Below, in pieces: positions 9,347 through 20,068 of a stretch of DNA of 28,784 bases (the stretch's first letter is position 1; each line of letters begins with the position of its first letter). Below the pieces are notes generated by a model. That model was given only the letters and a program-made list of their open reading frames with translations. It searched no databases and was not told the origin of the DNA. The DNA lies in IMG/VR virus record IMGVR_UViG_3300041583_000260, positions 1 to 28,784 of that record, one strand, 5' to 3'. The translations under genes were made by a program, and so were the position numbers. The DNA comes from a virus.

Positions 9347-9787
9347 TTATAGGCCATAATGAGATGCTACTTCACTAGGACTTGCTTCACGAATACCCTT
9401 GCGAGTGAGCCACATCTTGGCTGCCTCCTTCGTAACGATATTATATCCTTTTGAAATTCTTCCCACAGAAGACCAAGCAACATTCTTTTCAGAAAATATT
9501 GCAAGTTTGTTACCTTTTGGCTCTTCTTTTTTAAATTCTTTATTTGTAAAGTTATCTGCGGTAGCCGTTGTGACTACTCCTTCACTATTTGATTTTGTTG
9601 CAGACTTAGGTTCATGCCCTTTATCTTTTACTGTTGTTGATAGCACCAGGTTATTTTCTGATAACTCTTCTTTACCTGAAAGACTGGAAACGATCTCTGA
9701 CTTTGTTTTTAGTTTTCCTAGATCAATATTGTTTTCTGCAGCATATTCTTTTAGCTGTGCAATGGTCATACTCTTAAAATTTGACAT
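9347..9787 (-). CDS. Small head-region protein with SAP/HeH-like N-terminus
   Basis: From the ATG at 9787 this is a 146-aa protein; a TTG two codons earlier is possible but lies too close to the ribosome site. The N-terminus SMTIAQLKEYAAENNIDLGK with a following KTKSEIVSSL matches the helix-extended-helix pattern of SAP/HeH/Rho-N domains. A disordered Ser/Thr/Lys-rich linker (about residues 40-95) leads to a conserved-looking C-terminal domain (VAWSSVGRISKGYNIVTKE and a MWLTRKGIREASP segment). Between capsid and adaptor, lambda has gpFI, which also carries an HeH-like motif and aids packaging. A comparable role is a guess. The start is supported by AGGAAAGG 10 nt upstream. Confidence 0.7.
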   Translation of the reverse strand: MSNFKSMTIAQLKEYAAENNIDLGKLKTKSEIVSSLSGKEELSENNLVLSTTVKDKGHEPKSATKSNSEGVVTTATADNFTNKEFKKEEPKGNKLAIFSEKNVAWSSVGRISKGYNIVTKEAAKMWLTRKGIREASPSEVASHYGL

Positions 9788-9812
9788 ATTCAATGTACCT
9801 TTCCTCAGCTTA

Positions 9813-11046: not shown

Positions 11047-11592
11047 TTAAAATAGGTCGGACTTTTTGAGGAAACGTCCACCCCATAGGGATTTTTGAGC
11101 CTTTTCGAAAATTGGCTCCTGTACAATCTCACCGAGATCGCCAGACTTACGGAAAGCTGTATCTTTTTCCACTGCGTCCACACGCTTTCCAAAATCATTT
11201 TTTACTGAATCAACATCCTGCTTGACACTTGCAACTGTTTTATTGAGACCTTCAACCTTCTCATCAATAGTTTTAACGGTGTCAGCAAGCATACTGAACA
11301 TAGATTGGACTTGATCTCCAAGTGCCTTGGTCGCTTTCAGCTCTTCGCTATCTTCCTTCGGCATATCGACTGCTTTTTCATCTGTAGAATCTTTACTTCC
11401 CATAGACTTCATTTCATCCATATCGTCTTCGTCATCCATATCGTCTTCATCCTCTTCCATTCCTGGAACAGCTTTTTCAACATCTTCGGATGACTTTTCA
11501 ACTTCTTCTTCTACAGCCTTTTCAACTTCTTTTTCTGCCTCAACAGCTTTTGTAGTTTCTTCTTCTGTAGTTTCAGTTACTTCTTTATCCAT
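11047..11592 (-). CDS. Nested scaffolding protein from an internal start in the protease gene
   Basis: The in-frame ATG at 11592 (Met246 of the protease) is preceded by AAAGGAGG with an 8-nt spacer, a near-perfect ribosome site that would have no reason to exist inside a gene unless used. The product would be 181 residues, starting MDKEVTETTEEETTK: acidic, low in hydrophobic residues at first, then a coiled-coil part (VKTIDEKVEGLNKTVASVKQ) and a basic/aromatic C-terminal tail (SLWGGRFLKK) that could bind the capsid protein. Lambda C/Nu3 and several other phages make scaffold this way from the 3' part of the protease gene. The reading is an inference, but the site is plainly visible. Confidence 0.72.
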   Translation of the reverse strand: MDKEVTETTEEETTKAVEAEKEVEKAVEEEVEKSSEDVEKAVPGMEEDEDDMDDEDDMDEMKSMGSKDSTDEKAVDMPKEDSEELKATKALGDQVQSMFSMLADTVKTIDEKVEGLNKTVASVKQDVDSVKNDFGKRVDAVEKDTAFRKSGDLGEIVQEPIFEKAQKSLWGGRFLKKSDLF

Positions 11593-12327
11593 TTTGCTTA
11601 CCTCCTTTACCTCATTTTTTACAGTAGAGAGTATAGACTTAACTACCTCCGCTTTCTGCGTATCGTTAGTTTCAACAAAACCAATATTATTCATTCCCTT
11701 ATCGCATCTAGGGCAATCTGATGTATTGTTGGAAGCCAGTTGTACTATATTATCCTCACTACACCAAAATACGTTTTCTATCAGGGCTTTAGATAGAAAG
11801 CCCCCAGCTTGTCCTTTTTCAATACTAATAACATTTGCGTATTGGTTAGCAGGATTGTCTACCAAAGATAATTCAAAAAGATCATACTCTTTGATAATTC
11901 TTATTGATTTTTCCATGCCCTCGTCATATACGTCTTCATAGTCCTTTACGTTCCCACCAATAGAAAATCCTGTAAGAGTCTTATCAAGAACCTTTTCCCA
12001 TGTGTCTTGTGCCCCCTTACTTACATATGCTGAAACAAAAATTCCCTTATACATTTTTTCAGATTCTTCATCATAAAAAGAATCTTCCTTAAAGGATACA
12101 AGCTTTCCCACAGCTTTTTTGTCATCATGCATCTCTCTTATATTCCCTCTAAATTCTTCAAAGGCTTTTATGCTTGCTTCAGAGGGAACAATGTCTCCTT
12201 GACGATCAATATTGTCTAGCGTTGCAAATCCAGAAACGACCCTTCTCTCAATATCAATCTTGGCAATAGGCATAGATAGCTTGAGGCTGTTTCCTTCAGA
12301 AGACCAGCTTGCTTTAGAAATTTCCAT
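11047..12327 (-). CDS. HK97-type prohead protease with C-terminal scaffold domain
   Basis: This is a 426-aa protein. Residues 20-165 have the prohead protease fold: a VVSGFATLDNIDRQGDIV strand, the catalytic-type His67 in REMHDDKKAVGK, Ser122 in LTGFSIGG, and the family signature FELSLVDNPAN at 151-161. Residues 186-218 hold a Cys-rich segment (Cys189 and CPRC at 205-208) that may bind metal. From residue 246 the sequence is very acidic and helical (Glu/Asp/Lys runs, then coiled-coil heptads at about 335-395), as expected for a scaffold. A strong internal ribosome site sits before Met246. The ATG at 12327 lies 9 nt after TGG-TATAAT with no Shine-Dalgarno, so the mRNA may be leaderless or nearly so. 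Confidence 0.88.
   Translation of the reverse strand: MEISKASWSSEGNSLKLSMPIAKIDIERRVVSGFATLDNIDRQGDIVPSEASIKAFEEFRGNIREMHDDKKAVGKLVSFKEDSFYDEESEKMYKGIFVSAYVSKGAQDTWEKVLDKTLTGFSIGGNVKDYEDVYDEGMEKSIRIIKEYDLFELSLVDNPANQYANVISIEKGQAGGFLSKALIENVFWCSEDNIVQLASNNTSDCPRCDKGMNNIGFVETNDTQKAEVVKSILSTVKNEVKEVSKMDKEVTETTEEETTKAVEAEKEVEKAVEEEVEKSSEDVEKAVPGMEEDEDDMDDEDDMDEMKSMGSKDSTDEKAVDMPKEDSEELKATKALGDQVQSMFSMLADTVKTIDEKVEGLNKTVASVKQDVDSVKNDFGKRVDAVEKDTAFRKSGDLGEIVQEPIFEKAQKSLWGGRFLKKSDLF
11601..11608 (-). promoter_or_regulatory. Internal ribosome binding site for the nested scaffold
   Basis: The minus strand reads AAAGGAGG, then TAAGCAAA, then ATG at 11592. This is stronger than the sites of most annotated genes in the window. 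Confidence 0.75.
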
Positions 12328-12336
12328 ATTAGATAT

Positions 12337-12342
12337 ATTATA
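12337..12342 (-). promoter_or_regulatory. Extended -10 box upstream of the protease gene
   Basis: The minus strand reads TGG TATAAT followed by 9 nt and the ATG at 12327; the gap contains no Shine-Dalgarno sequence. Confidence 0.55.
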
Positions 12343-14001: not shown

Positions 14002-14369
14002 TATGAGTCATCCCCGTATTTCTTTAGTGTTTGCTGAGCATCATAAACGGCCCCCATATCGTTTATGTTAGGAATTAGGCCACTACTCATCCTTTCCATT
14101 TGTACTGAGTGCTCTTCATCTGTTGCTCTTTTAATCCCTGCATAAAACCAGGGGTCTCCGTCTGGTTGACCAAAGTGTGCGGCGGCTGATCTTATCTCTG
14201 ACATCTTTAATAGGTCATTTCTCATAGAGGGTATATTTAGCATGTTTCCTTCTCCATCATGAAACAGGTGTCCATCTGGCAATCTCCAAAAATAGAGACC
14301 CCAGTCGTATGCTTTTGGTATTACTGTGGCCTTAGATTTGCCAAGTTTGTTGTTTTTTGGTTTGCTCAT
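14001..14369 (-). CDS. Small conserved protein upstream of the portal, function unknown
   Basis: This 122-aa protein has a basic N-terminus (KPKNNKLGKSK), then YDWGLYFWRLPDGHLFHDGE, GNMLNIPSMRNDLLKMSEI and a C-terminal SGLIPNINDMGAVYDAQQTL. I recall proteins of this type next to the portal in large actinophages, where they are listed without function; this is memory, not a search. The first 20 or so basic residues could bind DNA or an acidic partner. It is coupled to the portal through TAATG. Its ATG stands exactly 6 nt after TGC-TATAAT with no room for a ribosome site, so it is a strong leaderless candidate. It may be a portal or packaging accessory. Confidence 0.75.
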   Translation of the reverse strand: MSKPKNNKLGKSKATVIPKAYDWGLYFWRLPDGHLFHDGEGNMLNIPSMRNDLLKMSEIRSAAAHFGQPDGDPWFYAGIKRATDEEHSVQMERMSSGLIPNINDMGAVYDAQQTLKKYGDDS

Positions 14370-14375
14370 GGTTAA

Positions 14376-14391
14376 ATTATAGCAGATTATA
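14376..14391 (-). promoter_or_regulatory. Tandem TATAAT boxes; the second is an extended -10 six nt before an ATG
   Basis: TATAAT occurs twice on the minus strand (14391-14386 and 14381-14376). The first contains the TAA stop of the LamG gene. The second is preceded by TGC and followed by TTAACC and the ATG at 14369. Confidence 0.6.
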
Positions 14392-17300
14392 CTGGTTTGT
14401 TGATAATTCCCAACCAGGTTTGGTCTGCAAATAAATAAAAATCGTCATCTATTAAGGACATTCCTAGATCATCATCAATAACAGATATGTTTGTTCCTAC
14501 ATATGACTGATAAATATCTCTTGGGGTTGTTGAATATTCTTTTATTTCTTCTAAAACATAAACATCTTTCCATTTATTTGGCTCCAGAAGCAATCCATTT
14601 TCATCGTACCAGTATTGCCAATCTACAATGTTTCCTATTGTTGGATCTTGCTGTCCATATAGCACCTCGCTCCAGTTTTTAGTTACTATGCTAGAAAACT
14701 CATTTAACCCGGTAGACCTAAAGAATGAAAGATTATTATATGTGGCTCCAGAGAATATATTTAAAGACCCTGTATAGCTGTCAAGGATGATTGCGGTATT
14801 AAAGGATACAGATATGGAGTTCCACTCATCTTTAATGAGATAGGGATTTTTTACTTCTAATCCATTTTGATAAAAAACTAAGTCATTAAGTTCTATTTTT
14901 GTTACTTTGTCTCTGGCGTATAGTTTAAATCTTTTACTTGTTTCGTCTAAAACAACTACAAACTCCGTGGCTCCTTGTTCATATAAAAGTTCAAACATTA
15001 CTTGAGAAACTGGTGACACCTGAAACTGATCATATTTCATAAATAGCTGAAAAGCTCCAAGGGAGTAGGAGGACTCTGAGTTGTTTATTGGGACAGCTAT
15101 CCCATACTCAATGTCTTGGTCTTGACTGAGTAGCCTAATTCCACTATTTTCTGTTAGGTATAGGTATGGGAGGTTGTCTTTATTTATCATTACTGGGTTT
15201 TTTGATTTTCCACTATAGTATATTCCAGTCTTAACATATGGATAGATATCTTTTCCAGTTTTAGTTCCTATTGGTGTAAGTCCATTTTCATTCAAAGATT
15301 TTGAAGAAATTTCAAGATTTTTAATTTTTAGCGGCTGACTAACAATTCCATCTTGTTGAATTTTAAAATGAACAACCATTGCAACATTTTTAAAATTTAT
15401 GGACTTTGGGGGATAAATGACTACTCCATCAATTACCCCAAATTTTGTTTTATATGCCTTGTATGGTTCTTGATTGGTATTCTCTTTTTCTGCATATACC
15501 GTGTAGGAGTCAGTCAGCTGCTTTGTCTCTATAAAGCTTGATAGTGGTTCATCTGCTCCTTCTGCTAGCAACTGAAATGTTATATATGCATCTAGAGAAG
15601 AGTCCTCTGTGCTTATTAGATATTCAGTAATTATGTTATTTTTTAAATCTAAGTAATTTACATACCCAGATAGGAGGCTATTATCTAAAACCTCATAGCT
15701 TTTCTGTATTGGGCTATTAAAATTATTAAAAAGTTGCTGATAGCTCCAGTCTGGATTATCAACTTCATTTTCTATGATGCTAATTAGAGATGGATATCCA
15801 AAATTTAATTGAAGGTAGTCAAGATCATAAAAAATACTTCCATCTCTTTTTGTTACATATGATGCAAAATAAGAAAGAGGAAAATATTCTTCCCATTCAG
15901 AATATACGGAAATATCCAAGAAGTAGGACTCATATCGAAAGAATGGTGAAAGTGTGTATGAGGCATAGTGTTCTTCTAAAAGATCTTCACTTAAATTCTT
16001 TGCTATGCCGTTGTCATGAAAATAACTGGATATTTGATTAAAGTTCGACTGATCTGAAAACCCAACTCTATAAATTTTTCCTTCAAAGGTTGTCGAGCCA
16101 TCTCCACCAACATATACTTCTAGATTTTCAGGTGAGCCAAAGAAGGATGATATTTCATAATTAAAGTTTTCAGATATTTGCTGTATATTAAATCCTACAA
16201 CAAAGTTACTATTAAGAACACTAAATCCAGTATCAGGTAGTTCTTGGCTATCAAACTCATACTTTACGTTATACCCTGTTAGACTTATTTCAAATTTTTT
16301 ACCATTTGTTTTATTTAGTATTTGGATCAGTGGTCTTTTTGATGCAACTTCTTCTTCTACCTCAAATATTCCGTACAGGGTGGTTATGGGGCTTATCAAA
16401 AAAGATAGGTTTGTAAAATTTAAGTATCCCTGCTCCGTCCAGTTTGTTCCAGAATCTGAAACCCACTCTCCATCTACTATGTTGGGCCTAAAAGAAAAAA
16501 ACATGGAATGACCCCCTGATGGATAGATAAGATTGTTTAAATCTTTATTATCTTTATACCACTCTTGAACATCTCTTCCCCCTAGATATATTTCTGGCAA
16601 CTGATAATCTGGAACAGATATTGAGTCTCTTGTTGCTACTAGGTTGTTGTAATATCCTGCATCCCACCTTTCTACGTCTGGATAAATCTTATTAGAGGTA
16701 TATCTAGAACTAGAAAAATCTATAACGGCCTCTTCTCCATCGAATGAATTATTTATCGTTTGAACCGAGTCTGTACCCTGACCCCAAACAAATCTTTTCT
16801 TTGCTACTTGATTTGATATTGAATATGGCATGATAGATATACAATCAATTTCCATTAAGTCTATATCCTCGTAGCTATAAAATCCAAACCAATCACTTTC
16901 TGAAAAATCTACCGTATCTTTATTTATCTGTATTTGACCGACTTGCTCTCCATTTATTAAAAGAGATACTGCATCATTCTTTATAACAATGTGAACGATC
17001 ATTGGCCTATACCATGTTGAAATATTATGAGATATGAATTTTTTATCTACTACCAGAGTTAAAAATCCTTCTTTTACATAAAGTCCATCATTTGTATCTA
17101 TAGTCCCTAGTATTTTTCTTGATTCTTTTGTAGAAGGTCTTACCCTAAGCCAAAACTCTAAGGTGTAGTTTTTATACCTACCATTTTTTGTAAGCATGTT
17201 TTTATTTGGAAAAATAAGTGATGGAGATCCATTTGATGATGGATAAATTTTTGTTATATTCTCAGATCCAAATATCATAGGTATTCCTGTATTTTTTGCT

Positions 17301-18046
17301 AAAAGCTGTCCATCCTGGATAACATAATATGCATTATCAGAAAGTAAGCCATACTGATCTCCCGAAATCACATACCCTGACAGACCAGAGGATACTGGAG
17401 CTACTTCTTTAACTCCTCCCAGCGAGTGTGAAGAAAAATTCTCTGACCACTGCCCAACGGTAATTCCATTAAGTATAAAATCATAGTCTCCAGAAGATCC
17501 TCCAGTTTTCAACTTTGCTCTAAAAAACACTTTACATGAGTCAGAGTCGAATTCCTGGATTATAAAAGAATCTTCAATTTTTATCCAACCTTCTCGCTCT
17601 AATGCTGGAAATATAGAGAAGACTTCTATGGTTGAAGATGTTGCATTGTCGTAATACTCATAGCCAATCTCATACTCTGAAACATAAATAGAGTCTTGAT
17701 AAACATACATAGAGATAGAAAAAGTTTTTAATGTTTCACTACATTCATTAAAATCAAAAAGCTCTGGACTTCTTGCTTCAAGGGTGTCTCCATCTAAGGC
17801 TGGTACATCTCCTTCTACCCCCGAATAAATATTACTGTCAAAGGGGGATCTTTGATTTGGCAAAGACAGATCATCATTAGCCGTTCCACCAGAAATACTC
17901 CAGCCGGGGTAGGGGGAGGATGGTTCAAATTTTCTTTGAACATTACTTATTAAAGAAATATAGGATGCGTCGTCATCTAACGGCCAAATGGCTATTGGGT
18001 GTTCAGAATACACCTTTGCGGCATAAAGATTAGAAACAGCAGTCAT
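14387..18046 (-). CDS. Large LamG-like minor tail/adhesion protein
   Basis: This is a 1219-aa, beta-rich, acidic and aromatic-rich protein. The N-terminal YSEHPIAIWPLDDDASY is the opening seen in many actinophage LamG/concanavalin-like tail proteins. A laminin-G-like jelly roll is visible at about residues 285-420 (YTLEFWLRVRPSTKESRKIL, later SLLINGEQVGQIQI). A second similar region lies near 985-1100 (SLGAFQLFMKYDQF, KDEWNSISVSFNTAIIL). LamG domains bind sugars, so a role in attachment to the cell surface is likely. It starts 17 nt after TGC-TATAAT with TAGGAGAA as ribosome site. It is bounded by the RNR hairpin upstream and the tandem TATAAT downstream, so it is probably its own transcription unit. 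Confidence 0.75.
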   Translation of the reverse strand: MTAVSNLYAAKVYSEHPIAIWPLDDDASYISLISNVQRKFEPSSPYPGWSISGGTANDDLSLPNQRSPFDSNIYSGVEGDVPALDGDTLEARSPELFDFNECSETLKTFSISMYVYQDSIYVSEYEIGYEYYDNATSSTIEVFSIFPALEREGWIKIEDSFIIQEFDSDSCKVFFRAKLKTGGSSGDYDFILNGITVGQWSENFSSHSLGGVKEVAPVSSGLSGYVISGDQYGLLSDNAYYVIQDGQLLAKNTGIPMIFGSENITKIYPSSNGSPSLIFPNKNMLTKNGRYKNYTLEFWLRVRPSTKESRKILGTIDTNDGLYVKEGFLTLVVDKKFISHNISTWYRPMIVHIVIKNDAVSLLINGEQVGQIQINKDTVDFSESDWFGFYSYEDIDLMEIDCISIMPYSISNQVAKKRFVWGQGTDSVQTINNSFDGEEAVIDFSSSRYTSNKIYPDVERWDAGYYNNLVATRDSISVPDYQLPEIYLGGRDVQEWYKDNKDLNNLIYPSGGHSMFFSFRPNIVDGEWVSDSGTNWTEQGYLNFTNLSFLISPITTLYGIFEVEEEVASKRPLIQILNKTNGKKFEISLTGYNVKYEFDSQELPDTGFSVLNSNFVVGFNIQQISENFNYEISSFFGSPENLEVYVGGDGSTTFEGKIYRVGFSDQSNFNQISSYFHDNGIAKNLSEDLLEEHYASYTLSPFFRYESYFLDISVYSEWEEYFPLSYFASYVTKRDGSIFYDLDYLQLNFGYPSLISIIENEVDNPDWSYQQLFNNFNSPIQKSYEVLDNSLLSGYVNYLDLKNNIITEYLISTEDSSLDAYITFQLLAEGADEPLSSFIETKQLTDSYTVYAEKENTNQEPYKAYKTKFGVIDGVVIYPPKSINFKNVAMVVHFKIQQDGIVSQPLKIKNLEISSKSLNENGLTPIGTKTGKDIYPYVKTGIYYSGKSKNPVMINKDNLPYLYLTENSGIRLLSQDQDIEYGIAVPINNSESSYSLGAFQLFMKYDQFQVSPVSQVMFELLYEQGATEFVVVLDETSKRFKLYARDKVTKIELNDLVFYQNGLEVKNPYLIKDEWNSISVSFNTAIILDSYTGSLNIFSGATYNNLSFFRSTGLNEFSSIVTKNWSEVLYGQQDPTIGNIVDWQYWYDENGLLLEPNKWKDVYVLEEIKEYSTTPRDIYQSYVGTNISVIDDDLGMSLIDDDFYLFADQTWLGIINKPV

Positions 18047-18118: not shown

Positions 18119-20068
18119 TTATGCTGAAACGAGATCTACCACATCACATGAACCTGCTCCAGCTACACATGCAAGTTCCTGAGATCCAGTAGTTGTATCT
18201 TCCATCTCATACAAAGGAAGAGACTTCCATGGGATTTGCTTTGGCATGGAACTTAAAAGTTTTTCATACTCATCTTTAGTTATTTCTTGATATGGTGCCT
18301 GTCTATAGCTATGCTCCGAAGCTGGTAGGAATGATACCCCTCCGATTGAATCAAAGTTTTTAAATACCCAGGCTCCTACGTCAAGCCATTCCTCTTCCTT
18401 GATATTAATGGTTACGGATGGATTGTGTTCTGTCCAATGTGTTCTATAAACTTTCCAGACTTCAAGGTGGTCTATAGCTGAAATGTCTGCTGTGACTACC
18501 GCATTTTTAGGAGCCTTGATTGGAAAAGAAAATACAGTTGTCATATCTGGTTTCATCACATCTGGCTCATTTGGAACATTAAAGTCTTTAAGAAATGCTG
18601 TAAGAGGGTCCTTGTTATCTGCACGAACAGTTCTAATGTAGTACTCTGAATACCACGGATGGATTCCACTAGAAACTCCGGCCAACTGAGAGACAGTCCC
18701 CGATGGCTTAACTGTTGTAATTGCAACGGAATGATTAATTCCAAGAACGTCTGCCTCTTTCTTGTTTACTTCAATAGCTGATTCTCTAAGTCTATCAAGC
18801 ATTCCTGCAAGATCTTTATGGACTTTTCCTGTTAGGGAATTTCCAAAAATTCCAGTAAGGGACACTCCAAGAAGTCTTTCTTCTTCACAGTTATCTTTCC
18901 AAGACTTTCTAATATATTTAAAATTTGTCAAAGAGGATTGCCACGTTCCAAGAATTGTTGCCACTTCAATCTTATCTCTAAGGGTTTCTTCTGTATCATT
19001 TGCATCAATAACTACCTCTGTGAGATTACAAAACTCATTGGCACGAAGAAGAATTTCACCACAAGGATTTGTTCCAACTACCTTGCTAGAATCTCTACGG
19101 TCAAATTTATCAATATGTTTACGAACAGAATCCATGTTATAGATACCTCGTTCCCCTGATTTTGACTCATAAAGGTTACGCCATTCCCGAAGGAACTGAG
19201 CAGTATTTGGCTTGCTATTGTATACTGCTGAGTTATTTGCCAATGCTCTTTGTCCTTCTGTTTCCCACCATTGACCTGATTTAGCTTTAGCCATTTCAAA
19301 GTCATCAAGGTTAGAAAGGGAAATTAAAGCACTTCTGCGTACCCCGCCGACAACTACCACCTCTCCTACCTTGCACATCAAATCATGGGCCTCAATAGGC
19401 TTTAATCTTCTTCCTGATGCAATCTTAAATTGTTCAACGGTAAACTTAAACAGTTCATCTAGTGGTTCTGGTCCAGATGCTCTACCTCCAAAAGTTTTTA
19501 ACCTTGCCCCTGCTGGGCGTACCTTTGACATGTTCCATTCAGGAATCTGACCTGTAACAAGAAGACCAATTAGCTCCTTGTATGCTTTTGCCCATCCAAG
19601 TTTAGAGTCCTCTACAATGATTGTTGTATTTGTTAAAAATAGTTCTTCGGCAATTACGGGTAAAAGGTTTGTATATTTTTGTTCAACAGAAAACCCAACT
19701 CCTGTTCCATTCATCAGCACATACATAGCTTCATCAAAGGCTCTTAGACTGTCTACCGCAATAAAGCTACAGTTATACGCTGCAATATTATCTCGTTCTA
19801 AGGCAGGTCCTGCAGTCATTAAAGATCTCATAGATGGCATAACTTTATGATTTAAAATAGAATCCTTTACTTTGACAAATTTAACATCATTTTGATCATA
19901 GTCATAGTTTTTTACAAGATGATTTTTCATAAAGTCTATATATCTATCTACTGTCTCAGACCACGTTTCCCTTCTACCTTTTTCTTCTATCCATCTGCTA
20001 TATCTTGATACTGCAATAAAATTGCGGTAGGGGTCTAAAATTGATCCATCTTCGTCAATAAATGACAT
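18119..20068 (-). CDS. nrdJ: Class II (adenosylcobalamin-dependent) ribonucleotide reductase
   Basis: This 649-aa enzyme reduces ribonucleotides (probably triphosphates) to deoxyribonucleotides for phage DNA synthesis, using a B12-derived radical. Seen: NCSF with Cys100 and EFCNL with Cys347 as the redox pair; NPCGEI at 334-339 with the thiyl Cys336, Asn334 and Glu338; the C336-to-C347 spacing of 11 equals 408-to-419 in the Lactobacillus leichmannii enzyme; TTVKPSGTVSQLAG near 451-464; and a C-terminal swinging-arm pair, Cys634 and Cys641, in ACVAGAGSCD. At 649 residues it is shorter than the 739-residue Lactobacillus enzyme. No NrdB/NrdD partner is present. It sits alone between tail genes, with its own ribosome site (GGAGAGTG) and a hairpin after it. 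The L. leichmannii numbering is from memory. Confidence 0.93.
   Translation of the reverse strand: MSFIDEDGSILDPYRNFIAVSRYSRWIEEKGRRETWSETVDRYIDFMKNHLVKNYDYDQNDVKFVKVKDSILNHKVMPSMRSLMTAGPALERDNIAAYNCSFIAVDSLRAFDEAMYVLMNGTGVGFSVEQKYTNLLPVIAEELFLTNTTIIVEDSKLGWAKAYKELIGLLVTGQIPEWNMSKVRPAGARLKTFGGRASGPEPLDELFKFTVEQFKIASGRRLKPIEAHDLMCKVGEVVVVGGVRRSALISLSNLDDFEMAKAKSGQWWETEGQRALANNSAVYNSKPNTAQFLREWRNLYESKSGERGIYNMDSVRKHIDKFDRRDSSKVVGTNPCGEILLRANEFCNLTEVVIDANDTEETLRDKIEVATILGTWQSSLTNFKYIRKSWKDNCEEERLLGVSLTGIFGNSLTGKVHKDLAGMLDRLRESAIEVNKKEADVLGINHSVAITTVKPSGTVSQLAGVSSGIHPWYSEYYIRTVRADNKDPLTAFLKDFNVPNEPDVMKPDMTTVFSFPIKAPKNAVVTADISAIDHLEVWKVYRTHWTEHNPSVTINIKEEEWLDVGAWVFKNFDSIGGVSFLPASEHSYRQAPYQEITKDEYEKLLSSMPKQIPWKSLPLYEMEDTTTGSQELACVAGAGSCDVVDLVSA

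Follow-up and report, generated by a model that had tools for sequence, protein, structure and literature searches.

A conserved internal start points to a scaffold protein nested within the S78-type head maturation protease gene of a phage lineage

Organization of the head genes

The DNA analysed here, the window, is a 28,784-nt fragment (IMG/VR record IMGVR_UViG_3300041583_000260), and all coordinates are window positions. Its minus strand carries a head module in the order portal (14001-12364), head maturation protease (12327-11047), and major capsid protein (11015-9885). The portal protein was assigned by Pfam Phage_portal (5.7e-26), and the 376-aa capsid protein by Pfam Phage_capsid and phrog_1623; the capsid gene has its own Shine-Dalgarno (SD) sequence, GGAGGTG (dG -10.6). 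Upstream of the portal lies a 1219-aa open reading frame (14387-18046, minus strand) for which Pfam gave no match and PHROG a single weak one (phrog_31355), and a ribonucleotide reductase of the B12-dependent type is encoded near the head genes (18119-20068, minus strand).

The protease gene (11047-12327, minus strand) encodes 426 aa. Its product, hereafter the long form, matches Pfam Peptidase_S78 (PF04586, 1.9e-07, 31.8 bits, cut-off 21), Peptidase_S78_2/XkdF (PF14550, 8.1e-06, 26.3 bits, cut-off 24), and the head maturation protease family phrog_9427 (3.6e-118); Bacillus subtilis gives a PF14550 match. A predicted model of low overall confidence (mean pLDDT 59) places a beta barrel at aa 7-157 (11857-12309), a Cys-rich beta segment at aa 182-220 (11668-11784), and a helix at aa 225-243 (11599-11655). 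Within the barrel, H67 and S122, which we take to be the catalytic pair, are invariant in 29/29 aligned sequences. The barrel superimposes on T4 gp21 (5jbl_B; VIA-align Z 11.8, rmsd 3.4, 133 aligned). It scores Z 5.4-5.7 against the HCMV and HSV-2 proteases, with the next unrelated rows at 3.8, and a Z below 8 is by itself no proof of kinship. A plain Foldseek search of the PDB with the predicted model returned no match at E <= 0.001, and a search of viral predicted structures matched XkdF and prohead proteases. By sequence and model, the N-terminal part of the long form is an S78-type prohead protease with a procapsid-protease fold, and is predicted to be proteolytic.

All three cysteines of the long form (C189, C205, and C208) lie within aa 187-245. 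Together with D192 they make the Cys-rich segment (11668-11784, minus strand), which is confined to the long form, look like a zinc ribbon in which an Asp serves as a ligand. Two homologs (L043 and L045) have lost the Cys pair, and a strict motif matches only 37/75 dereplicated homologs in a set that includes the best 80 of 578 relatives.

The C-terminal half differs in composition, with Asp and Glu making up 41% of aa 246-340 (pI 4.05) versus 18% of aa 1-186. The model, at low confidence, gives a disordered acidic stretch from about 244 to 326 (aa 246-326 by composition and model, 11350-11592), a long helix at aa 327-395 (11143-11349; pLDDT about 55-73 over most of it), and a disordered tail. 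An earlier note on this DNA, made from the sequence alone, had claimed a switch to an acidic coiled coil at this junction; the acidic region does begin there, but it is better described as an acidic disordered linker, followed by the long helix and a conserved tail. The tail (11050-11142), WGGRFLKKSDLF in the window, follows the pattern WGGRFLxKSDLF in the close clade and takes variant forms in distant relatives; we propose that it is the capsid-binding end. Profile comparison with the sequences of solved structures matched only coiled-coil-type chains, over about 274-413, naming no family. No known scaffold family was matched when the C-terminal half was compared with solved structures by profile, Foldseek, and VIA-align, which is not evidence against such families.

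An internal start conserved across relatives

The same note had proposed a separate start inside the protease gene, and its anatomy is exact to the base: the SD sequence AAAGGAGG (11608-11601, duplex dG -13.0), kept in homologs, is followed by the 8-nt spacer TAAGCAAA (11600-11593) and an in-frame ATG at 11592. This ATG is codon 246 of the 426-codon frame and falls directly after the predicted helix 225-243, leaving the predicted product of 181 aa (11047-11592, minus strand), hereafter the short form.

Scored by anti-SD duplex dG, the site is the strongest among 195 in-frame internal ATG, GTG, and TTG codons in 29 window genes. The second strongest, GAAGGAGG ahead of ATG 9415 (minus strand, dG -12.2), lies inside the open reading frame 9347-9793, which has a weak match to endonuclease VII (phrog_3281). 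The pattern AAGGAGG-N4-10-RTG occurs three times in the window against 1.22 expected, a count reached by 14/100 shuffles, and AAAGGAGG-N8-ATG once against 0.07 expected, reached by 7/100 shuffles; an equally strong site arises in 37/1000 synonymous shuffles of the window gene. Within the window alone, the internal motif is thus only modestly unusual, and the proposal would be weak from the window by itself.

We therefore rest the case on relatives. The homolog set comprised 54 loci and the best 80 of 578 relatives from two scans of viral contigs, together with nine stretches from Streptomyces and Rhodococcus phage isolates at 34-45% protein identity to the window protein; two loci, L001 and L065, are the window itself. 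Each in-frame internal start codon of each homolog was scored against the anti-SD, with dG <= -10 at codons 235-285 as the criterion. Left out of the full-length counts were L037 (frame broken, N present) and the partial loci L041, L042, and L050-L055, and three loci with open frames below 380 codons (L038, L039, and L086) also fall outside the resulting 132; the few repeats of one contig among these, fetched by both scans, were removed by clustering.

Of the 132 full-length homologs in this set, which includes the best 80 of 578 relatives, 129 have their top internal start at codons 235-285 with a dG of -10 or below, and the clustered counts are 72/75 at 90%, 32/33 at 70%, and 9/10 at 50% identity. 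The three exceptions are L035, an N-terminally truncated piece with the site at its codon 212, and L046 and L048, in both of which the site is weak (AAGGAAGAAGGTG before ATG 256, dG -6.7). The decayed site of the latter two offers a natural test of the need for a strong SD. Among control open reading frames of at least 250 aa from the same loci, 17/158 hold any internal start of that strength; strong starts number 17/2038 in control frames versus 75/980 in protease genes, 72 of the 75 at the junction (again with the best 80 of 578 included). The best internal starts of twelve portal and capsid genes, drawn from six phages, have dG values of -5.6 to -9.3. A scan of cellular genome contigs with short patterns from one sequence gave 19 stretches that matched a pattern, with no relative confirmed among them; given patterns of this kind, cellular relatives may still exist.

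Conservation in relatives rules out a chance origin of the site, which the window statistics alone could not firmly reject. The claim of a separate internal start accordingly gains strong support, of a comparative kind and at the level of sequence, from divergent relatives.

Synonymous conservation was examined in a close clade of 16 representatives at 68-95% nucleotide identity (L028, L029, and L035 left out), in which AAG GAG GTA AGC AAR ATG is invariant. Codons 240-244 show synonymous identity in 545/545 pairs versus 347.5 expected, ranking second of 382 five-codon windows, with comparable constraint at codons 344-348, 377-381, and 420-424. When windows of 17 codons are compared, the top rank among 394 goes to codons 228-244, which cover both the SD and a TATACT or TATTCT box.

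That box bears on a reading in which the short form comes from a transcript of its own, an internal promoter giving an SD-led mRNA, as for herpesvirus UL26.5, which is made from its own transcript. The candidate box, seen by eye, lies 37 nt upstream of the internal start codon and reads TATACT in the window and TATTCT in close relatives, and the gene's most synonymously conserved 17-codon stretch spans it together with the SD; by eye, however, there is no recognizable -35 element or extended -10. Unlike in UL26.5, the evident signal in the window gene is the internal SD. We regard a separate transcript as unlikely, and it would leave the protein outcome unchanged with respect to our preferred explanation, an internal start used on the protease message.

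Evidence for a scaffold role

The half of the gene that encodes the short form adjoins the capsid gene, lying directly upstream of it. In the nine isolate stretches from Streptomyces and Rhodococcus phages, only one protease product is annotated, and no separate scaffold gene is annotated there. The capsid protein of the window has only about 70 residues ahead of its Pfam capsid domain, with no delta-type scaffold domain evident. Position, composition, and the lack of any other annotated scaffold gene together support well the assignment of the short product as a scaffold.

It is conceivable that the internal start is used and that its product instead restrains the protease, or is a minor capsid or internal protein. 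The scaffold role is drawn from position, composition, and helix prediction, and the C-terminal half has no identifying structural match, which leaves some room for such functions; against them, none of the nine isolate records has another scaffold gene annotated beside the capsid gene, and the short N-terminus of the window capsid protein shows no delta-type domain. We consider a non-scaffold product very unlikely, and favor the scaffold assignment.

Selection on the nucleotides of the motif

Across the wider set, the motif persists while its coding context changes. Among 75 dereplicated homologs (set including the best 80 of 578), GGAGG stands 8 nt ahead of the start in 65; another 8 have it at 5, 7, 10, or 13 nt, and the remaining 2 (L046 and L048) lack it. 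It is read in one codon phase in 66 of the 75, as AAG GAG GTA and similar codons encoding KEV with KEE, KED, KEA, KEG, and QEE variants, and in a second phase in 7, as GAA GGA GGT or AAG GGA GGT and the like, encoding EGG or KGG (best 80 of 578 included in both counts). The internal start codon is ATG in 66/72 and GTG in 6/72 dereplicated homologs of the same set, with the same best 80 of 578; among cultured Streptomyces phages, it is ATG at codon 253 in Bmoc and GTG at codon 258 in StarPlatinum. The motif stays while the encoded residues, the codon phase, the position, and the start codon vary, so that at the level of sequence selection is on the nucleotides and not on the residues. Synonymous shuffles of individual homologs reached the observed strength in 1 (L043), 7 (L049), 0 (L056), 7 (L057), and 1 (L059) per 1000; the sites are less rare in L058 (100) and L062 (78), and those of L046 (890) and L048 (924) are wholly ordinary.

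These patterns weigh against the view that the SD-like sequence is no initiation site at all, and either slows elongating ribosomes at a domain boundary as a folding pause or results from conservation of the peptide KEVSK. In its favor, the peptide EVSKM is invariant in the close clade, and synonymous shuffling of the window gene recreates a strong site at the frequency given above. Other lineages, however, encode KEE, EGG, or KGG, in another phase and at another position, and an in-frame ATG or GTG nonetheless follows; a conserved peptide would keep its codon phase, and a start codon 8 nt after GGAGG in 65/75 homologs (best 80 of 578 included) would be superfluous for pausing. We judge this reading highly improbable. 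Release of the scaffold only by self-cleavage of the full-length protein, with the internal start minor or unused, draws on the general occurrence of autocleavage among prohead proteases and on phage P2 gpO, which joins protease and scaffold in one chain, but it gives no account of why the SD and in-frame start are conserved and sits poorly with two loci that keep the site although their protease part is broken (L037, a frame break with N, and L086, an in-frame stop), and we find it hardly probable at all.

The second of these loci (L086:2001-3308) has a stop at protease codon 146 with the internal SD, start, and scaffold frame intact, and represents either a sequencing error or a scaffold-only variant.

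The outer start

The outer ATG at 12327 had been described as lacking any ribosome site. It indeed has no SD (duplex dG -2.8), but it is not without a signal: a TATAAT box (12337-12342) lies 9 nt upstream, a probable promoter -10 element. Such a box stands 8-10 nt ahead of the outer start in 58 of the 72 dereplicated homologs with enough upstream sequence (at 9 nt in 42, 10 nt in 12, and 8 nt in 4; set including the best 80 of 578). The other 14 comprise 3 with TATAAT at 0, 4, or 18 nt and 11 with no exact TATAAT, several of which show TATAAA, TATACT, GATAAT, or GATATT (the best 80 of 578 again included). One clade (L019-L027 and L030) has no TATAAT box and a different sequence upstream of the outer start, with the internal SD unchanged.

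Leaderless genes, as described for a type frequent in Actinobacteria, have a TA-type, -10-like TANNNT whose first T lies about 12 nt upstream of the start codon (PMC3160421). The first T of the window's box is at -15 versus this value of about 12 nt, a spacing that implies a leader of a few nucleotides. Given the TATAAT 9 nt upstream, we read the outer start as probably near-leaderless rather than leaderless, with the promoter abutting the start codon. With this box present, the missing SD is by itself no ground for concluding that little of the long product is made.

The arrangement recurs in the window. TATAAT-N6-ATG starts six other genes, at 14369, 21305, 24206, 24569, 26299, and 26898 (minus strand), several of them without an SD; the six occurrences compare with 0.62 expected, and none of 100 shuffles reached that number. 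Several relatives show the pattern with a strand bias (at most 10:0 and 10:1), and others have few or no copies. Leaderless starts thus appear common in the window phage, and the pattern suggests an actinobacterial host.

Discussion

We propose that one gene yields two co-terminal proteins, a protease-scaffold fusion of 426 aa and, from an internal start, a scaffold alone of 181 aa, and on the comparative sequence evidence we consider this very likely. The internal start is probably used by ribosomes, with the short product in excess. The long form would begin at ATG 12327, which lacks an SD and is preceded at 9 nt by a TATAAT box, and the short form at ATG 11592, behind a near-consensus SD within the protease reading frame. 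The scaffold would copolymerize with the capsid protein, a contact probably made by its long helix and conserved tail. The long form, the less abundant of the two, would enter the procapsid by way of the common scaffold part and digest the scaffold inside it.

We further suggest, tentatively and as something rather short of probable, that two modes of initiation operate on one message. The protease-scaffold would be made near-leaderless and without an SD from an abutting promoter, and the scaffold from an SD-led internal start on every transcript that covers it, so that protease dose would follow one promoter and scaffold dose total late transcription. The gene would then be an S78 counterpart of UL26/UL26.5 across a large actinophage-related lineage.

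A nested protease/scaffold arrangement is already known in kind from lambda and herpesviruses. In lambda C/Nu3, the scaffold lies in frame within the 3' part of the protease gene and has its own internal start; C is an S49 (ClpP-like) protease, and the pair is thought to work likewise, the shared scaffold part bringing the protease in. The window gene resembles this pair in its in-frame internal start with its own SD and its common C-terminus, known here from sequence alone. It differs in its protease, which belongs to S78 by Pfam (only S78 families match at E <= 0.01) and has a T4 gp21-like fold, and in an outer start that looks near-leaderless; because the protease is S78 and not S49, the gene would work like C/Nu3 without being a member of that family. 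The roles of Nu3 as scaffold and C as protease are those given in PMC3224144.

Herpesvirus UL26/UL26.5 (UL80/UL80.5 in HCMV) is described as a protease-scaffold fusion accompanied by a more abundant scaffold that equals its C-terminal part, the fusion carrying the protease into the procapsid (PMC7920273). One published account treats the prohead proteases of phages as related to those of herpesviruses (PMC5957328). The window gene would be analogous in pairing a protease-scaffold fusion with a proposed scaffold-only C-terminal product.

Among the closest known systems, Stanwilliamsviridae (Streptomyces phages) and Rhodococcus phage Grayson have capsid maturation proteases that are full-length homologs at 34-45% identity. 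They share with the window the order portal-protease-capsid and the internal SD-plus-start, with GTG as the internal codon in several, and their records annotate a single protease product; unlike the window, the Streptomyces phages have an extra small gene between portal and protease. The relation of the window to Stanwilliamsviridae consists of a homologous head protease and gene order, with one protein compared and the window a fragment. Matches to T5-like phages (Vibrio Thalassa and JSF12, and Klebsiella Roth39) have an S78-type protease beside the capsid gene and align by tblastn over the protease part; unlike the window gene, they have a protease of about 200 aa, a capsid precursor of about 460 aa, and no fused scaffold, and they were rejected as fused-scaffold relatives. 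In T5 and HK97, the scaffold is described as the N-terminal part of the capsid precursor (PMC5155283, PMC9024508). Set against the T5-like sizes, a protease of 426 aa and a capsid protein of 376 aa look as if the scaffold had moved onto the protease.

As far as our literature search shows, what is apparently new is a nested start in a deeply conserved S78 lineage together with an apparently near-leaderless outer start; in the open-licence literature we found no report that an S78 protease-scaffold gene contains an internal start, which is not proof of absence. If our proposal is correct, an unannotated scaffold is concealed within the capsid maturation proteases of this lineage, and its nesting would account for the lack of an annotated scaffold next to the capsid gene in the isolate records. 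Phages would then have their own parallel to the herpesvirus protease/scaffold gene, built around a protease whose fold is probably related. The gene would further provide a clean test case for how the protease-to-scaffold ratio is set, one that cultured Streptomyces phages open to direct testing. It also serves as a warning that nested in-frame starts are missed by standard gene calling.

One of the homologs (H22, MindFlayer, MW291014.1) comes from a phage that acts as helper to the satellite MiniFlayer. The satellite itself is described as carrying capsid and scaffolding genes (PMC10690885).
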